64,000 bases of DNA. It comes from a candidate division WOR-3 bacterium (lineage in GTDB: Bacteria; Hydrothermota; Tepidihabitantia; Tepidihabitantales; Tepidihabitantaceae). The notes under the pieces were generated by a model. That model searched no databases and was not told where the DNA came from. It worked only from the letters and a program-made list of their open reading frames with translations. Position numbers and translations under genes: made by a program. Positions 41,501 through 49,327 of this stretch are shown piece by piece (position 1 is the stretch's first letter; every line of letters begins with the position of its first letter). The DNA is taken from the NCBI GenBank assembly GCA_024653355.1, contig JANLFQ010000001.1:1088829-1152828 (forward strand), given 5' to 3'.

Positions 41501-42702
41501 TCCGCCAGCCTTTTTGCCTGAAACCGCCGGTTGTAACGGTCAACTTCTCCTTGTAAGGGCACATCGCCAAGAGCCCTTACAACCGGCGTACCAACCCCCT
41601 TTTCCCGGATTTCCTTCAAAACGGCAACGAAACCCTGCCGGTCCTGACAGATAAACCCCTGCCCTGCCTCTCTAACAATCTGCGCCGGCTCCGAATCTTC
41701 ATCCGCCCAGACAACAATCGGCTTGCCACTGCCCAGATACTCGTAAAGTTTCAATCCGACCGGTTGACCCGGCTTGCCGAGATACAAAAGCACCTGCGCC
41801 CCTTTCATCAGGCTCATAGTCCGTTGATGGGAAACAACCCCAAAAAAACGCACCTGAGGATTGGTTCTGAACCGACGCCCGATTTCTTCGGAAACGCCAC
41901 CCGCAATGTACAGTCGGGCATCAGGTATCTCAACTAAAGCCTGAACAACGTCGCTCAAAACCTTTTCCTGGTGCCACAGATTACCCGCATACAGAATACT
42001 GAAACCTTCAAGTTGTTCGGGCTCAACATTAAATTCTTCCGGGTCAAACCCATTTTCGAGCACCTCCACCATTTCCCCAACCAGACGTGCAGTCCCTTGA
42101 TTTACAGCAAGAACCAGTTTTGCCTGTTGTAATATCCGCTCCCTTAACCTCAAAAGCCTTTTCTTTTGCCCTAAGGGTGGCTCTTCAAACCCTCCGGGCC
42201 ACGGGTCACGGAAGTCGGCAACAAAAGGCAGCCCGCTCAACCGGGATAGTTTCTCCCCGACCATCAGTGCGGTCCAGGGTGGCGCCGATGCGAAAATCAC
42301 TTGGGGGTTAAATCGGGCGATAACCTTCTTACCCGTTCTTACTGCAAACGGCAACCACCCGACCTTGCTATCCGGGAAGAAAAACCGCCGGAAAAAGGCA
42401 GGGGCACCTTCAATTGTGCCCTTCAAGGTTTGTCCGGTTTCCCCTGAACCACCTTTTATCTGCCTAACGCCAAGAACCCTTAACAACCGATTCGGGTCCA
42501 AACTTTCGGTACGAAATACCTTAGCCCTCCTTAAATCGGCAACAAGTTCCGGGTCATAGGCGTAGTAGGCAACATCCTTTACCGTTAAAAGCAGCACCTC
42601 CCAGCCAAATTCGGGCAAAAACTTGGCAAGTTTGGTGACCCGCATCACACCGGAAAGCCCGAGCGGCGGGGTGTAGTAGGCGATAAAAAGTACCCTATTC
42701 AT
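41443..42702 (-). CDS. Family 4-type glycosyltransferase
   Basis: The 419-residue GT-B protein starts MNRVLFIAYYTPPLGLSGV. It has GLPFVADFRDPWPGG in the N-terminal domain and, in the C-terminal domain, FSILYAGNLWHQEK, VRFFGVVSHQRTMSLM and LKLYEYLGSGKPIVV (donor binding). The acceptor and donor are unknown. Its ATG overlaps the helicase stop by four bases, so it is read with the ATPase-helicase operon even though its role fits the sugar cluster. The 3' end overlaps the opposing GT2 gene. Confidence 0.88.
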   Translation of the reverse strand: MNRVLFIAYYTPPLGLSGVMRVTKLAKFLPEFGWEVLLLTVKDVAYYAYDPELVADLRRAKVFRTESLDPNRLLRVLGVRQIKGGSGETGQTLKGTIEGAPAFFRRFFFPDSKVGWLPFAVRTGKKVIARFNPQVIFASAPPWTALMVGEKLSRLSGLPFVADFRDPWPGGFEEPPLGQKKRLLRLRERILQQAKLVLAVNQGTARLVGEMVEVLENGFDPEEFNVEPEQLEGFSILYAGNLWHQEKVLSDVVQALVEIPDARLYIAGGVSEEIGRRFRTNPQVRFFGVVSHQRTMSLMKGAQVLLYLGKPGQPVGLKLYEYLGSGKPIVVWADEDSEPAQIVREAGQGFICQDRQGFVAVLKEIREKGVGTPVVRALGDVPLQGEVDRYNRRFQAKRLADYFGRLLDGRIAARPDRRQ

Positions 42703-44759
42703 CCCTTACGCTCTTCTGCGCTTCTATTGCCTTCTCCGGGCATATGTTCGGTGATTTGCGCCTTGACGACCGCCGGCTCCATCCGCACCAGCTGGACTGA
42801 ATCGAGAAACTCATAAAGCCCATCGATATCAAGGGTCAAAAGATGGTCCTCGATTTGTAAATCGACGGGTAAGTTCCGGAAAAAAGCGCCGGAGCCAAGA
42901 CTATCTTCAAACTCAAGAAGATGGTCTCGCACCACCCGTTTGAGCGCCTCCCGTCCTGGTAATGGAAATCGTCCCTCCGGCAAACGTGCGGCGGGCAGCA
43001 TCATAACCTTACCAGCCATATCCACCGCCGCTACCCCTTCCGCCTGTAAAGCGAGGGCTAAAATTCCACCATAAACCGCGCCGAGAAGATGCACCAGATA
43101 CGCTTGACCACCTTCAAAAAAATAGGGAAATTCACCCGATTTCAACCCCGGGAAAATTCTCGACTTCAACACTTCTGCCATCCGGTAAAAGTAACCTCCG
43201 GTTCCGGTCCCTTCAAAAACTTTGGTACTGGAAGAAACCGCCCCAAGCGGCTGGACAAGGAGTTTTTTATCCTTCTCCTTTCGCTCCACAATCTCCCACG
43301 ACCTGCCTCCGAGAACGAAGCGCTCAAACACAAAGAATACCGAACCAACCTCCTGACCACTGGTAACATCAATCACCTGATACTGCCCAAAACTTTTCTC
43401 CTGAATATTGGAGTGAATTTTCCCGGTCTCAACCCGGTGTTCAAGTGCCGAAGTAAGAAAATAAACTCCACCCCTTCTTTCCTGCAACATCCCCTCCTGC
43501 AACAGATGGGAAAAAACCTTTTCCACCACCGGGCTGTTTCCAAACAGCGGCTGAAAAATCCGCCGCACCGACTCTAATGTTGTTCCGATGCGGCGGCGCT
43601 GAAAACAGTAGGAGATAATCTGCTGGGGCAGAACTGAAAGGCAGGGGGTATACCTTTTGTCAAAAAGTTTTCCTTCGCGGGCGCAGTCGATAAAGGTCTC
43701 AAACAAAAGCCTCTCCCAGGGGTCAAGGTAAACCCCAATCATATACAGCCCATTTCCCCGGCGACGATTTCCCCGCCCGATACGCTGCAGCAGTGAAGAA
43801 ACATTAAACGGCGGCCGAAACAGCACAACCGCATCGACATCGCCGATATCTATCCCAAGCTCAAGAGTGGAAGTACAGCAGAGAATTCCGCTCCTTTCCC
43901 TTGTCATCCTTGCCTCAACCTCTTCCCGAACCTGACGGGTCAAACTCGCATGGTGTACCCACACCCGACCGGAAAAAGGCGGCAGGTCAAAAAGTTTCAC
44001 CCCGCTTTCCGCCAGCGACCGGGCGTTGAAGAACACCAGCGCTTTATCACAACCCTGTTCTGTCAAACGCTGCACAACCCGTGCCGGCCAGTCCTTGCTT
44101 CCGGGCAACAGTTCGGCGTTTATCTCCCGCCGTTTTGCCACCTGTACCACGCCGGCACCAGGAAAGTACCGCTCACCAATCAACACATCATCAACCGTCG
44201 CCGAGAGCGCATACCCATTAAAATTGGCATTAATTAGCCGCAAACGTTCGAGGAGCACCCTTAACTGGTCACCACGTGGCGTGTTGTCAAGAAGATGTAT
44301 CTCATCCAGAATTACCGCACCCAGCGTTTTGAAAATCCGGGGATGACGGCACAAAAGCGAGTCCAAAGACTCCGGGGTAGTTATAAGGATAAAAGGCAAT
44401 TTGCGTTCATCAATCTGCGGGTGGTCTCCGGTCTTGCGCTCCAGTTTGAGCCCCAGGTACTCAATCGGTTCCAAAAGCCGGCGATACAGGTCGTTAACCA
44501 GCGCCCGGGTGGGCGAAACATACAGAACAGAAAACCCTTTTTTCCCCATTCCCAATAGACGCTCAACCACCGGCGCCACGACCGCTTCAGTTTTACCCGA
44601 TGCCGCGGGCGAAATCACCACCAGATTCTCACCCTTGAGAATTCGGGGAATCGTCTCCATCTGAACTTCGGTCAACATTCCGAACCGGGCAAAAAACGCT
44701 GAATAGGTTCGGGGTAGTTGCGCCTTTACCGCCCGTTGCTCCTTAATCTCGTTCCACAT
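42699..44759 (-). CDS. DEAD/DEAH-box helicase, Lhr/BrxHI-like
   Basis: The 686-residue SF2 helicase has Walker A SPAASGKT (50-57), the Ia block VSPTRALVNDL, TTPESLD, DEIH (152-155), the SAT motif and HHASLTRQVREEVE. It also has STLELGIDIGDVD and motif VI QRIGRGNRRR, as in Lhr-type helicases. A C-terminal extension of about 250 residues is unassigned. Lhr-type BrxHI helicases follow brxD genes in type 2 BREX loci; here a BrxD-like ATPase ends 15 bases upstream. This context favours genome defence or DNA processing, but no BREX methylase or PglZ is in the window. Confidence 0.85.
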   Translation of the reverse strand: MWNEIKEQRAVKAQLPRTYSAFFARFGMLTEVQMETIPRILKGENLVVISPAASGKTEAVVAPVVERLLGMGKKGFSVLYVSPTRALVNDLYRRLLEPIEYLGLKLERKTGDHPQIDERKLPFILITTPESLDSLLCRHPRIFKTLGAVILDEIHLLDNTPRGDQLRVLLERLRLINANFNGYALSATVDDVLIGERYFPGAGVVQVAKRREINAELLPGSKDWPARVVQRLTEQGCDKALVFFNARSLAESGVKLFDLPPFSGRVWVHHASLTRQVREEVEARMTRERSGILCCTSTLELGIDIGDVDAVVLFRPPFNVSSLLQRIGRGNRRRGNGLYMIGVYLDPWERLLFETFIDCAREGKLFDKRYTPCLSVLPQQIISYCFQRRRIGTTLESVRRIFQPLFGNSPVVEKVFSHLLQEGMLQERRGGVYFLTSALEHRVETGKIHSNIQEKSFGQYQVIDVTSGQEVGSVFFVFERFVLGGRSWEIVERKEKDKKLLVQPLGAVSSSTKVFEGTGTGGYFYRMAEVLKSRIFPGLKSGEFPYFFEGGQAYLVHLLGAVYGGILALALQAEGVAAVDMAGKVMMLPAARLPEGRFPLPGREALKRVVRDHLLEFEDSLGSGAFFRNLPVDLQIEDHLLTLDIDGLYEFLDSVQLVRMEPAVVKAQITEHMPGEGNRSAEERKG

Positions 44760-44774
44760 CCGCTATTTTAATTA

Positions 44775-46139
44775 TCAGCGGTTAGCGACCAGTTGGGGCA
44801 AAACACCCTGTTGCTGAAGCCGGGCGATATCCAGTGCCTCAACACAGAACTTGATAAAAGCCCGGACCCCGTTGCTGCTCTGCCGGGCAGCACGGGACAG
44901 AAGATGTTTCTGCTCTTCAATTGGCAACTTGAACCCCGGGTAGGCGCGTTCGTAAATCCGTACCATCGTGGCAAACGCATCAGCGAGCGCCTGGTCTTCA
45001 AGCGGCGTTAGGGCAATCCGATGTCGCACCGCATTGGTAAGCCGGATATAACCGTACTCGCCCGGGGTTGGCGTCGTGGCAAAAATAATTAACAGTGCCG
45101 GGTCCCGATAAATGTAGGGCACAGGCCGAACCTGATTGTGAATCAACCGTTCGTTTACCACCTTTAACTCCGGGTCGTTCTGGGCACAGCGCACCAGCCC
45201 ATCCATAAAGTTAACGCTCTTGGTCAGATAGACAACATCCCACAGCCGGGTTACGGTCTCTGCCTCGTCAATCAACAAAACCAGCCCCTTCAGCCCTAAC
45301 TCCCGGGCAATACAGGAAATCCCGGTAATGATGTGACAGTAAAAGTCAGCCGCTGTAGAAAAATCGTAAAGTGCCGGAATCCCCTGCGCGCCTCGTACCC
45401 GAGAAGCGGTCGGCATCTCCACCGCATACTCCTTGGTACTTTCGCCTTCAATCCACTGCCAGAAAACTTCACTCTCCGGTGAACCAGCATCCAGGCGGCG
45501 CAATTTGTTAAGCACCGGACCAAAGAAAATGTGGTCGTGAAAATTCAACTGTGTGGCTGCCCGCAACAAATCCCGATACCCCTGCTCCATTCCATCCTTG
45601 ATGTAACGGAAGTTGCGCACCAGTTCCCGGTAAACCCGCTTGGGCCGATGGGGTGAAACCTCTACCGGATCAAACTGGATAAGACTCGCCGCCATCCCTT
45701 CCTGCAGCGCCCGATGTAAACAGTACTCCAGAAGATGGGTCTTGCCCGAACCGTATTCCCCCTCTAACATATAAACATCACTCCGATTACGGGCAAGGTT
45801 GCGCAGTGCATCTTCCACCACCTTGACCTCTTGTTCCCGGCCAAAGGTAAAATGCTCCACATCCTGATGCGGCACAATGCCCAGCCGGAACGCCTCAATC
45901 ATTCGACAGGCACTAACCCGGTCAATCGCCGCAACACTGGCGGTTGCCGATTCCAGCAAATCGCCGTCAAATTCAAAAAGAAACCGCACCCGGTTGCGCG
46001 GCAACCACAACCGTAAACCGGTCTGAAACCGCACCAGCAACTCACTGCCCTGCCAGCGGCTGTCAACAATCTCGCCTTCGCCGAAAACCGGATGCGATAC
46101 CAGTTTAGAACTCTTCACGCTCAACTTTCTCCTGCTCAC
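44775..46139 (-). CDS. BrxD-like ATPase (DUF2791) with N-terminal Tudor/SH3-like domain
   Basis: The 454-residue P-loop protein belongs by motif order to DUF2791/BrxD. It has FGREQEVKVVEDAL, Walker A GEYGSGKTH (127-135), a long helical insert, LVLLIDEAET (Walker B, 286-295) and LIIFATTPTPGEYG (sensor 1). Residues 15-50 form an extra small domain (HPVFGEGEIVD and LLVRFQTGLRLWLPR) resembling the SH3/Tudor-like HPxFGxG modules of UvrD-type proteins. It starts 35 bases inside the upstream ATPase gene. The two ATPases may form a mixed ring. Confidence 0.82.
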   Translation of the reverse strand: MSRRKLSVKSSKLVSHPVFGEGEIVDSRWQGSELLVRFQTGLRLWLPRNRVRFLFEFDGDLLESATASVAAIDRVSACRMIEAFRLGIVPHQDVEHFTFGREQEVKVVEDALRNLARNRSDVYMLEGEYGSGKTHLLEYCLHRALQEGMAASLIQFDPVEVSPHRPKRVYRELVRNFRYIKDGMEQGYRDLLRAATQLNFHDHIFFGPVLNKLRRLDAGSPESEVFWQWIEGESTKEYAVEMPTASRVRGAQGIPALYDFSTAADFYCHIITGISCIARELGLKGLVLLIDEAETVTRLWDVVYLTKSVNFMDGLVRCAQNDPELKVVNERLIHNQVRPVPYIYRDPALLIIFATTPTPGEYGYIRLTNAVRHRIALTPLEDQALADAFATMVRIYERAYPGFKLPIEEQKHLLSRAARQSSNGVRAFIKFCVEALDIARLQQQGVLPQLVANR

Positions 46140-47370
46140 TCCTATCCAGCCGCTGGGTTGTTACCCGTAAAAGTTTCTCCGCATCCCGCTCGGTCAACAC
46201 CATTCCCGGATTGGCACGCGCCTGGTGCAAAAACTCGACTGCCGCCACGACAAACAACCGCCGGTAACTGACATCCAGCACAAACCCCTTGACCGCGGTC
46301 TCGGCAAGAAGTTTCAAACTCCGTTCCACCCCATTGATTTTGGTGCCGTAAGCGGTCTCAAAAAGGTCAACGAGCCGCTTACCCAGTTCCTCAAGAAACG
46401 GCACCGGCTCAATGCCCAACTCCTCCAGATTAATCCGCACTCCAACCGGATTTGCCTCAGAAAACCCGCTGCGCAACCGCTGCTTCAGCGCCTCGTAAAC
46501 CGGTCCCGAACCCTCGAGCAGCAAATTCTCATCCGGTACCGCATAGAAAAACATCGCGCCCGGCAAACGTGAGTTGCCACATTCATCAACCAACTGCCGC
46601 AAGTTGTCCAGTGCCCGGCGTCTATCCCTTGACGAAGAAATCGATACCCCCCGCTCCGCCTCATCAAACAGCAAAACCACTCCCCGAAACCCAATCGTAT
46701 GCACCCACTGAATCAACGACCGCAGCATCCGGAATGCCGTCGACTTGTCAATCCGCTCGGAAATCTTAAACCGTGCCCGCGCCTCCCGGGAAATCTCCTC
46801 ACCTTTGAGCCACTGCACCGCCTCAGTAAAACCATCAATGTCTTCGGCAAGCAGGGCGCTAAACGCCCCCTTTACCGCGTTAAAAAAACTCGTTGAGTCC
46901 GGTACCGGCAACTGTAAAAGATAATCCTGCAACCGCTCCGGGTTGTCCTCCTTACTCCGCCAGTTCGCCGCCCACTGCCGAATCACCGCATCAATCCCCT
47001 TGTCGGTTAGCGTTGCCAGCCGGCTTGTATCCTGGGGTGCGGTCAGATTAAGCGCCACCATCTTATAAACCAGTTCCAGTTTATCAAACGGGCACTCGGT
47101 CGGCGACAGACTCACATACGCAACACAGTAATTGTGCTTAAACGCCCGGTTACGCACCGCGTAGAGAAAATGTGTCTTGCCCCCGCCGTAATTCCCGGTC
47201 ACCAGCTTAAAACTGGACAGATTGTACTTCAGGATACCGTTAAGATACTCATCCTCAACCACCTGCAACAGCCGGTCCAGTCCGACCGTAAACGCCTCAA
47301 TCCCGAACTCCGGCGGAGTACCGGTTGAACCCAGTTTGTTGATTATTGCCCTTGCCAGTTCTCTATCCAT
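46105..47370 (-). CDS. BrxD-like ATPase (DUF2791), shorter paralog
   Basis: The 421-residue protein has Walker A GNYGGGKTH (59-67), the post-Walker strand VAYVSLSP, Walker B VVLLFDEAE (231-239) and sensor region LPGAMFFYAVPDENL. It also has a C-terminal helical part with SYRRLFVVAAVEFLHQ. It matches the DUF2791 plan of the next gene but lacks the N-terminal Tudor-like domain. It starts 23 bases after the stop of the 282-residue gene. DUF2791 proteins occur in BREX (BrxD) and in other helicase-linked defence or stress cassettes. Confidence 0.82.
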   Translation of the reverse strand: MDRELARAIINKLGSTGTPPEFGIEAFTVGLDRLLQVVEDEYLNGILKYNLSSFKLVTGNYGGGKTHFLYAVRNRAFKHNYCVAYVSLSPTECPFDKLELVYKMVALNLTAPQDTSRLATLTDKGIDAVIRQWAANWRSKEDNPERLQDYLLQLPVPDSTSFFNAVKGAFSALLAEDIDGFTEAVQWLKGEEISREARARFKISERIDKSTAFRMLRSLIQWVHTIGFRGVVLLFDEAERGVSISSSRDRRRALDNLRQLVDECGNSRLPGAMFFYAVPDENLLLEGSGPVYEALKQRLRSGFSEANPVGVRINLEELGIEPVPFLEELGKRLVDLFETAYGTKINGVERSLKLLAETAVKGFVLDVSYRRLFVVAAVEFLHQARANPGMVLTERDAEKLLRVTTQRLDRSEQEKVEREEF

Positions 47371-47393
47371 TTGACAACTCCTCAGTCTAAATA

Positions 47394-48242
47394 CTATCCG
47401 TTGACAAAAGAAATATACGAATAGTAGGTGCCTTCGCCCTCCTCGTTATCCGGCACCCAGAGCGACTTTGCCTTCTCACCGGTGGCATCAAAATTTGCCA
47501 CCGACAACCGTAACCCCTTACCGCCCACCGTTCGAACACCCGACCGCTTTAAAATGTACAGGTCATAACTGAAGCGGATGCGCGGGTACTCAACAAATCG
47601 CTCCCGCACCGGATTCACCCTGAACCCCTCCGACTGCATCAAAAACACCATCTCACTCAGCAAATCAACTAAAAAAACCCGCTCCCCCTCAACGATATTC
47701 CGGGCGAGACAAATCCGGCGGTAAGCGGTAAAAAGCCGCTCAACAAACTCTGCCGGATCCTTAATCGCCCGCTTCTTCAAACTCTCATCATAACTCCGCA
47801 GTATCTTCGCCAGAGCCAGCGGCTCCAGTTTCACCCCGCTTTTCAACCGCTCAATCTCCGGGCCCCAGAAAACGGTGGCTCTGCCTGTGGCGAAATCAAC
47901 CCGCACCGAAAACAACCCGCACCGCAAAAAAGGCAACTGTCCCTTAACGGTCAAACCGCTGCCTTCCAGACCGGCAAGCAACTGCCTGCCAAACTCAAAC
48001 TTAAACTCTTCCTTTGCCGCCTCAATCTGCCTCTTCTCCTCATCGAGCCACTGTCGAACCTTATCCCTTACCTCACCCGGAGCAAAACCTTCAATAGCCT
48101 TCTCAACCTCAACCACCATCCGTTCTCTTTCATACGCATTACGAATCGGCTCACTCACCAGTCGGCTATAACCGGCAAGCAGTTTTGCTACCTTCTGGGA
48201 CCGCAAAGCGGTATCCTTCAAAACGCCAATTAGCCCTTCCAT
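47394..48242 (-). CDS. Unknown first protein of the ATPase-helicase operon
   Basis: The 282-residue product is not recognised. Residues 1-85 are helical and charged, likely a coiled coil (RNAYERERMVVEVEKAIEG to EEKRQIEAAKEEF). The rest mixes strands and helices (GQLPFLRCGLFSVRVDFATG, RIRFSYDLYILKRSG) and ends with YYSYISFVNG. There is no signal peptide or membrane segment. As the first gene in a tight operon it may be the specificity or effector part. No TerB-like motif was found. The ATG lies eight bases past a -10 box and has no Shine-Dalgarno. Confidence 0.65.
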   Translation of the reverse strand: MEGLIGVLKDTALRSQKVAKLLAGYSRLVSEPIRNAYERERMVVEVEKAIEGFAPGEVRDKVRQWLDEEKRQIEAAKEEFKFEFGRQLLAGLEGSGLTVKGQLPFLRCGLFSVRVDFATGRATVFWGPEIERLKSGVKLEPLALAKILRSYDESLKKRAIKDPAEFVERLFTAYRRICLARNIVEGERVFLVDLLSEMVFLMQSEGFRVNPVRERFVEYPRIRFSYDLYILKRSGVRTVGGKGLRLSVANFDATGEKAKSLWVPDNEEGEGTYYSYISFVNG

Positions 48243-48250
48243 AATTTATC

Positions 48251-48279
48251 AGTATATTATCCCGCCCTTTTAATGTCAA
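48251..48279 (-). promoter_or_regulatory. Promoter of the ATPase-helicase operon, leaderless
   Basis: On the minus strand TTGACA (48279-48274) and TATACT (48256-48251) are 17 bp apart. The first ATG is eight bases further, so the mRNA should begin within two bases of the start codon. Confidence 0.7.
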
Positions 48280-48606
48280 CAACCCAGTATCGGCACTGTA
48301 AATCACGGGAAAAATTTCCATTCCAACTGTAAAAAGCATTACACCATTACTGCCATCGGATTTTAAAGAGTATATTTATGTTTTGTGCTTATCCGAAGAA
48401 ACGCTAAAAGCAGTCGTCACCTTCAGCAGGGCATTCTCTGCTTCTGCGCTGTCTGCCTTCCGGGCTTCTGCTCCTATCTCCCTTTAACGATTAACTTGTC
48501 GGTTCGGTTGCCCGTTCGCACTGCCTGTCAATGCTTATTTGCCCATCCTGAGAATCCATATCGAAACTTTGGCAGTCAAAGGCAGATGTAACACACACCC
48601 TCCATT

Positions 48607-48803
48607 ATATTTATATACGAAAAATCAGGTAAAAGTGACAAAAAACCACCTACCCGGCTGTCCGGGTGCAGTTCTGGGGATAGCCCCTGACTCACCCTTT
48701 CGGAACCATAGCACGATGGCGTAGAAGCCTGATAGCCCAGAAGCCGGAACCGTATCCTTCGGTTCTATCTTATTGATAATCAACAGTGTTATGCCCGATA
48801 AGC
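48607..48803 (+). repeat. Intergenic repeat, copy B
   Basis: This is the second copy of the repeat at 6320-6516, in the same orientation and with the same overall length. The conserved blocks are at 48616-48685 and 48766-48803. The middle part is more diverged. It lies upstream of two tRNA-Ser genes. Confidence 0.65.
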
Positions 48804-49232
48804 CACAACCCGCCACTCACTGCTGAATAAACCCTGTAATACCCTACCCGATTTTTGCTACCCTTTACCTGCATCTCCCCATTTCTGCCTCTGGGGCGCT
48901 TTTCTAACCTGCGGTTATGAGTAAGGCAGGAAGAATTTCCAATCTGCCCTATCCTGTTTTACCCCGATTCTACCCTATCAGCCGATATCGCCCTGATGTG
49001 CTGGTAAATATATCCGGAGAATATACAAGAAATTAACTGATGGAAGGGAATTTTTCCGGTTTAATCCAGAACACGCCACTCACAAAATATACAGTTTTCT
49101 AACCACCATTTATAAACAAAGCAACTTGTATTCAGGGAGACTGTATAAGACATTATTTATTTGCCTTTTGTTCCATACCCCAGTATCCTATCCTTGGCAG
49201 AACACCGTTATAAAGTTATCGGACGCTTGGTA

Positions 49233-49278
49233 TTGACAGGTTGTTTATCATTGACTTTTATTAAATCTCATTTAGAGT
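49233..49278 (+). promoter_or_regulatory. Promoter region of the tRNA-Ser genes
   Basis: A perfect TTGACA (49233-49238) lies 17 bp before TTTTAT. A second pair, TTGACT (49251-49256) and TAGAGT (49273-49278), has a 16-bp spacer. Either or both may drive the tRNA at 49328. Confidence 0.4.
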
Positions 49279-49327
49279 AATAAGAAGCGGTCAGGCGTTT
49301 TTTTCGGGCTGCTGAAGCACTACACCA

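Follow-up and report, generated by a model that had tools for sequence, protein, structure and literature searches.

ATPases of the PF10923 (DUF2791) family paired with Lhr-like helicases recur in several anti-phage systems. In type 2 BREX, the PF10923 ATPase BrxD adjoins the Lhr/Ski2-like helicase BrxHI, for which it has been proposed to act as a loader (PMC12839542). Shango, a BREX-independent system with anti-phage activity (PMC10250203), comprises adjacent genes for a TerB protein (SngA), a PF10923 ATPase (SngB), and a DEAD/DEAH helicase (SngC), in this order. Hachiman, in turn, combines a nuclease (HamA) with a helicase (HamB) and has been described as a sensor of DNA integrity (PMC12278908). 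Here, we describe a four-gene cassette from a genome of candidate division WOR-3 (NCBI phylum Caldifarciminota) and compare it with these systems.

Results

The cassette is an operon of four co-directional genes at positions 42699 to 48242, minus strand, of the window, that is, the whole 64,000-nucleotide stretch of DNA analyzed, and all four ORFs proved intact in the ORF check. In the order of transcription, all on the minus strand, they are gene 1 (P0001, 47394-48242; 282 amino acids [aa], a new family), gene 2 (P0002, 46105-47370; 421 aa, a BrxD-like ORC/Cdc6-type AAA+ ATPase of PF10923, here ATPase A), gene 3 (P0003, 44775-46139; 454 aa from a GTG, a second BrxD-like AAA+ ATPase of PF10923, here ATPase B, with an N-terminal Tudor/SH3-like domain), and gene 4 (P0004, 42699-44759; 686 aa, an Lhr/BrxHI-like SF2 helicase with complete core motifs). 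The spacings of +23, -35, and +15 reported for these genes in the initial annotation follow from the ORF coordinates; the -35 overlap of genes 2 and 3 hinges on the first GTG of gene 3, and a start at the second GTG (46118) would shorten it to -14. Since an overlap of -14 is also present in several close relatives, the start at 46118 seems the more likely one.

A sigma-70-type promoter (TTGACA-17-TATACT; 48251-48279, minus strand) lies 8 nucleotides (nt) before the ATG of gene 1 and, as had been proposed, is close to the consensus, which it matches in 11 of 12 positions. In a footprinting comparison with eight relatives, each had a TTGAC...TATA box pair ahead of gene 1, in most of them about 8 to 10 nt from the start codon; the upstream region outside the boxes had diverged among them. 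Based on the short and conserved distance between promoter and ATG, the operon mRNA is predicted to be probably leaderless. In the range L054 to L067, the promoter lay close to the gene 1 ATG in the relatives inspected, and leaderless transcription is perhaps clade-wide. Between the start of the operon and two tRNA-Ser genes (48243-49327 of the window), about 1.1 kb holds no obvious gene and has a lower G+C content (0.47), and at the other end a downstream glycosyltransferase gene, overlooked in the initial annotation, overlaps the gene 4 stop codon by 4 bases.

The genome contains no PF10923 genes other than genes 2 and 3. They scored 165.9 and 92.0 bits, respectively, against the PF10923 model (cut-off, 22.2), so that the HMM search upheld their designation as two DUF2791-type ATPases, and 134.7 and 87.3 bits against the NCBIfam BrxD equivalog (cut-off, 350). 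The Walker A (K65/T66) and Walker B (D236/E237) residues of gene 2 were identified, its catalytic residues are kept in 94/94 aligned sequences, and the Walker A lysine and Walker B DE are kept in every aligned gene 2 and gene 3 sequence with letters at these positions. The Tudor/SH3-like stretch of gene 3 covers residues 16 to 60 (45960-46094, minus strand; HPVFGEGEIVDSRWQGSELLVRFQTGLRLWL), and an N-terminal motif, HPxFGxGxVxxxRxxGxELxVxFxxGLxxW, is common to bacteria and archaea. The matches of this domain to UvrD/PcrA Tudor domains in the PDB (E of 0.07 to 0.47) lie below usual significance, as does a Pfam match (E of 0.012) obtained for 2 of 28 sequences, and matches to other Tudor domains are weak. 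In three loci from Methanosarcina and other Euryarchaeota (L125, L126, and L131), ATPase B carries an N-terminal extension of 400 to 600 residues (open frames of 866 to 1042 aa).

The identification of gene 4 as an Lhr-like SF2 helicase was corroborated by profile matches, with the DEAD and Helicase_C matches exceeding the Pfam cut-offs, and by motifs I, II, III, and VI (AsGKTE, DExH, SAT, and QRiGRgnRR), which are invariant or almost so in the family. Gene 4 shares the SF2 core and an overall relation with the Lhr-core helicases, among which 5v9x is its best solved relative (90.8 bits); unlike these, it measures 686 aa (members of the second main clade have about 530 aa), and its family is almost always accompanied by the ATPase pair. 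Against the ATP-dependent helicase equivalog NF010338, it scored 161 bits (cut-off, 849). Helicases of the Brocadia/ANME/Deltaproteobacteria clade (L121 to L153) have about 530 aa and those of the WOR-3 type clade (L034 to L120) about 670 to 690 aa, a difference that would reflect the gain or loss of a part. With Hachiman, the cassette shares the combination of a helicase with a small partner, but it has two additional ATPases, and the PADLOC HamB model gave a low score on gene 4 (56 bits). Gene 1 had no PADLOC match to HamA, in a search that remote kin could escape.

Lhr/Ski2-like helicases are able to act on RNA-DNA hybrids. This activity, and the occurrence on ATPase B of both bacteria and archaea of a Tudor-like domain reminiscent of that with which PcrA binds RNA polymerase (PMC5397179), would fit a role in RNA metabolism or transcription, in which a Tudor-guided ATPase pair recruits the Ski2/Lhr-type helicase to R-loops or to RNA polymerase, making the cassette an RNA or RNA-DNA remodeler. 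We consider such a role unlikely, as the Tudor match is weak and the domain is missing from ATPase B of the plasmid clade, and the PF10923 relatives are part of DNA-targeting systems. Moreover, Mfd was found in 99/100 relatives, carriers and non-carriers of the module alike; being near universal, it is not replaced by the module, and the idea of a substitute for Mfd-type transcription-coupled repair was rejected.

The gene 1 protein had been described as belonging to no known family, and profile searches of Pfam, PADLOC, and NCBIfam indeed returned no match for it; 25 of its relatives, tested individually, gave no family match beyond chance level, and matches to PDB sequences were discarded as chance matches of coiled coils. 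Its AlphaFold2 model (pLDDT 92.5; 94.5 for the C-terminal part modeled alone) consists of an N-terminal helical bundle (residues 1 to 94), a beta sheet (95 to 138), and a winged-helix-like C-terminal part (161 to 282), helix-rich and with a beta wing. In second-look structure alignments the top ranks were taken by ORC1 winged-helix chains (Z of 6.4 to 6.6; 78 residues at 3.0 Å for Z of 6.4), with FoxA, Cdt1, JetB, and MukEF-type chains at Z below ORC1; all these values are in the range typical of common arrangements, and the winged helix is a lead. Foldseek found nothing at an E of ≤0.001 in the PDB (whole protein and C-terminal part) or in BFVD (C-terminal part). Among 53 diverse members aligned, the invariant residues are P, G, Q, F, T, and G, with no invariant acidic/histidine cluster of a nuclease, and neither the conserved residues nor the confident model contains a catalytic signature. 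The earlier suggestion that gene 1 encodes an effector subunit is therefore not sustained; by appearance, the protein looks like a coiled-coil/winged-helix adaptor.

We then determined the relation of the cassette to BREX and Shango with a maximum likelihood tree of 71 ATPase sequences and a helicase tree built by a quick method with SH-aLRT support only. In the ATPase tree, gene 2 (28 rows; support, 95/88), gene 3 (28 rows; 97/91), and BrxD (97/82) each formed one side of a branch, and SngB fell into its own branch together with two unassigned rows (100/100). Gene 4 likewise formed one side of a branch in the helicase tree (SH-aLRT, 100). The ATPases of the cassette thus lie outside the BrxD and SngB clades, and its helicase lies outside those of BrxHI and SngC. 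To judge from these separate clades, the cassette is a third lineage beside BREX-2 BrxD/BrxHI and Shango, neither a decayed BREX nor a Shango.

The absence of the other BREX genes, first noted for the window, extends to the whole host genome, in which the best PglX match reached 41.5 bits (cut-off, 400), BrxC (a third PF10923 ATPase) was not found, and the search for a BREX PglZ yielded only a distant PF08665 ORF of about 530 aa (C1:365307). Since such ORFs occur in 120/150 relatives and PF08665 also matches PorX-like proteins, the one read having a receiver domain, this match was dropped as an uninformative BREX marker. No nuclease or methylase was detected in the four genes by Pfam, PADLOC, or NCBIfam or in the gene 1 alignment. 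The cassette resembles type 2 BREX in that a PF10923 ATPase adjoins an Lhr/Ski2-like helicase, and the two systems stand side by side on one plasmid; it differs in lacking PglZ, PglX, and BrxC, in BrxD equivalog scores far under the cut-off, and in its separate clades. PADLOC and Pfam label parts of the cassette BrxD/BrxHI-like, which might suggest a degraded BREX locus that has retained brxD and brxHI. Such an origin is extremely improbable: it is refuted by the separate monophyletic clades (two of ATPases and one of helicases), the cassette is intact and under selection across phyla, and gene 1 is, to our knowledge, part of no BREX system.

The initial annotation was thus right in setting the locus apart from BREX, but it overlooked Shango, which, with its TerB protein, single ATPase, and helicase, is a nearer minimal analogue. 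Cassette and Shango are both independent of BREX, and each combines a PF10923 ATPase with a DEAD/DEAH helicase, the two helicases belonging to one wider family. In contrast to Shango, the first gene of the cassette has no TerB domain in the Pfam search (the SngA control matched TerB_N at 225 bits), a pair of ATPases, each with a clade of its own, takes the place of the single one, and the helicase is not of the SngC clade. Among the 150 relatives no TerB_N match was obtained (0/150), yet the control genomes likewise gave none in that search.

Loci were collected as the stretches around gene 1 matches in 150 related genomes and as 80 named loci from an alignment search with gene 2. The complete order 1-2-3-4 on one strand was found in 63 of the 97 distinct loci, and the remaining ones contained ordered subsets or dispersed genes, many of them at contig ends; a rearranged order was not found among the 97. 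The neighborhood survey thereby agrees with the earlier view of a self-contained unit that recurs without pgl genes. The identity matrices of the four proteins are strongly correlated (Mantel r of 0.89 to 0.955; 60 loci), which indicates that the cassette evolves as one unit. Besides WOR-3, the carriers belong to at least a dozen phyla, methanogenic/ANME archaea included: in bacteria, Latescibacterota, Gemmatimonadota, Aminicenantes, Zixiibacteriota, Syntrophaceae, Poribacteria, Clostridia, Brocadia, Tectomicrobia, Caldatribacterium (OP9), Chloroflexi, Nitrospinae, Acidobacteria, KSB1, and Deltaproteobacteria, and in archaea, Methanosarcina, Methanophagales/ANME, and Methanoperedens. A search of the open-access literature found no paper naming the four-gene set. 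The four genes are linked and retained together, their active-site residues are intact, and the BREX and Shango partners are absent; they are one conserved unit, distinct from both systems.

Genes 1, 2, 3, and 4 were present in 58, 58, 62, and 56 of the 150 related genomes, respectively. Genes 1 and 2 occurred together in 56/150; two genomes had gene 1 only and two had gene 2 only, and these single-gene cases were mostly fragments, consistent with contig ends. Nearly all genomes of families f1 to f6 and f9 carry the cassette, and it is absent from the entire families f7, f8, and f10. In genome G021 and family f16, gene 1 stands separately next to housekeeping genes, and the ATPase pair and helicase occupy other sites of these genomes. 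Within family f1, the distances of gene 2 track those of the glutamyl-tRNA synthetase GltX (Mantel r of 0.887; p of 1e-4), and downstream glycan genes are common to many of the loci. On this sequence evidence the WOR-3 cassette is best described as a vertically inherited, clade-wide, syntenic chromosomal module with marker-gene-like evolution and not as a shuffled island.

The separated gene 1 of family f16 (G070:C43, G095:C24, G099:C216, G103:C9, and G115:C41) lies about 7 kb from a PorX-like gene with receiver and PglZ domains, and in G070 a GT2 glycosyltransferase gene lies between the two. One WOR-3 genome (G041:C72:272-4018) has a second, divergent copy of the ATPase pair and helicase; the helicase frame contains a single TGA, and gene 2 is incomplete.

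Deeper in the tree, the cassette has moved, the copy of family f23 grouping with the Brocadia/Clostridia types and that of f27 with Aminicenantes/Zixiibacteriota. A tblastn search of plasmids with gene 2 uncovered two plasmid-borne four-gene sets, one on the 27-kb pDESTI.01 of Desulfomonile tiedjei (NC_018026.1, 10215-15641) and the other on the conjugative plasmid3 of Aulosira laxa (L184; AP018310.1, 15287-24287), in which a PglZ-like gene, brxD, and brxHI are directly followed by the cassette. This plasmid clade is missed by plain tblastn with gene 1 and was reached only via gene 2; by profile, the first genes of the plasmid sets are true relatives of gene 1 (35 to 37 bits, versus ≤5.9 for 2000 shuffles). 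The other annotated plasmid matches that were opened were mostly Shango (TerB protein, ATPase, and helicase) or BREX (pglZ, brxD, and helicase). A Deinococcus psychrotolerans plasmid (L195; NZ_CP034187.1, 38023-45437) has a BrxD-like ATPase and a BrxHI-like helicase after two genes for hypothetical proteins of 851 and 451 aa, neither resembling gene 1, with no annotated pgl genes, and perhaps represents another arrangement. On a Haloarcula sinaiiensis plasmid (L198; 3979-6017), a 293-aa hypothetical protein, in the profile test not a relative of gene 1, is encoded just upstream of a very divergent PF10923 ATPase with no adjoining helicase. Viral contigs and phage records yielded no relatives of gene 2; searches of viral contigs for gene 1 and of phage records for its plasmid counterpart likewise gave none, and a viral or phage origin of the cassette was rejected on these grounds.

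Discussion

The plasmid copies, the patchy distribution outside WOR-3 (in Methanosarcinaceae, the cassette is present in 5/60), and the kinship of its ATPases and helicase with BrxD/BrxHI and SngB/SngC, their nearest relatives, from systems with known anti-phage activity, all favor anti-phage or anti-plasmid defense. The cassette would then be a third system, sister to Shango and to the BrxD-BrxHI pair of BREX-2, that detects DNA which is foreign or damaged in order to destroy or silence it, and that happens to be fixed in WOR-3. The place of the Aulosira set directly behind BREX-2 genes points in the same direction, as do the type I restriction-modification, reverse transcriptase, Cas1, and Drm/Hma-like genes in some flanks. 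The flanks, however, also hold gyrase, topo VI, and RadA, with no family in more than three flanking proteins, so that the tallies for a defense or repair signature are mixed, and a recurrent neighbor outside WOR-3 was not found. Defense is further opposed by the lack of a modification enzyme and of a recognizable effector in the cassette and of any copy in phage records or viral contigs. In WOR-3, vertical, clade-wide retention at a conserved chromosomal place, with genes that are co-retained even when dispersed, disfavors a typical defense island; the plasmid copies and the patchiness elsewhere keep defense in play. We regard it as a serious possibility, somewhat short of probable.

Because of the inheritance pattern in WOR-3, we favor chromosome maintenance as the role of the cassette there. 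The two different PF10923 ATPases would form a hetero-oligomeric, ORC/Cdc6-like clamp, and the gene 1 protein, whose model has a helical bundle and a winged-helix-like end, would be a DNA-binding adaptor that determines the site of clamp closure. Through its Tudor-like domain, ATPase B could anchor the assembly to a partner, for which RNA polymerase is a candidate by analogy with UvrD/PcrA. The Lhr-type helicase would then be loaded or driven by ATP turnover, and it might unwind or strip a stalled fork, an R-loop, or branched or foreign DNA. Also in keeping with this reading are the conserved gene order, the correlated identity matrices, the promoter shared with relatives, the intact Walker and helicase motifs, the lack of a nuclease or methylase, and the loader function proposed for BrxD (PMC12839542). 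The machine would most likely serve chromosome maintenance in WOR-3, and on plasmids and in the patchy archaeal and bacterial lineages the same machine may counter invading DNA. That an ORC/Cdc6-like ATPase pair with an adaptor loads an Lhr-type helicase, for chromosome maintenance in WOR-3, has in our estimation close to an even chance of being correct.

The cassette is probably an undescribed DNA-handling machine and not a remnant of a known defense system. By a tentative extension, to which we give a little less than an even chance, it may be an ancient four-subunit DNA-loading machine common to bacteria and archaea, built on two paralogous ORC/Cdc6-like ATPases and a new adaptor family, and used for core maintenance in one phylum and for defense on plasmids. 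As a minimal version, free of pgl genes and of a nuclease, fixed in one bacterial clade, and carried also by Methanosarcina and by Desulfomonile tiedjei, which is in culture, it offers a clean set for defining the role of the ATPase-helicase core, with gene 1 adding an unnamed family for which a confident model is at hand. The cassette also provides a test of whether defense modules and genome-maintenance machines interconvert.
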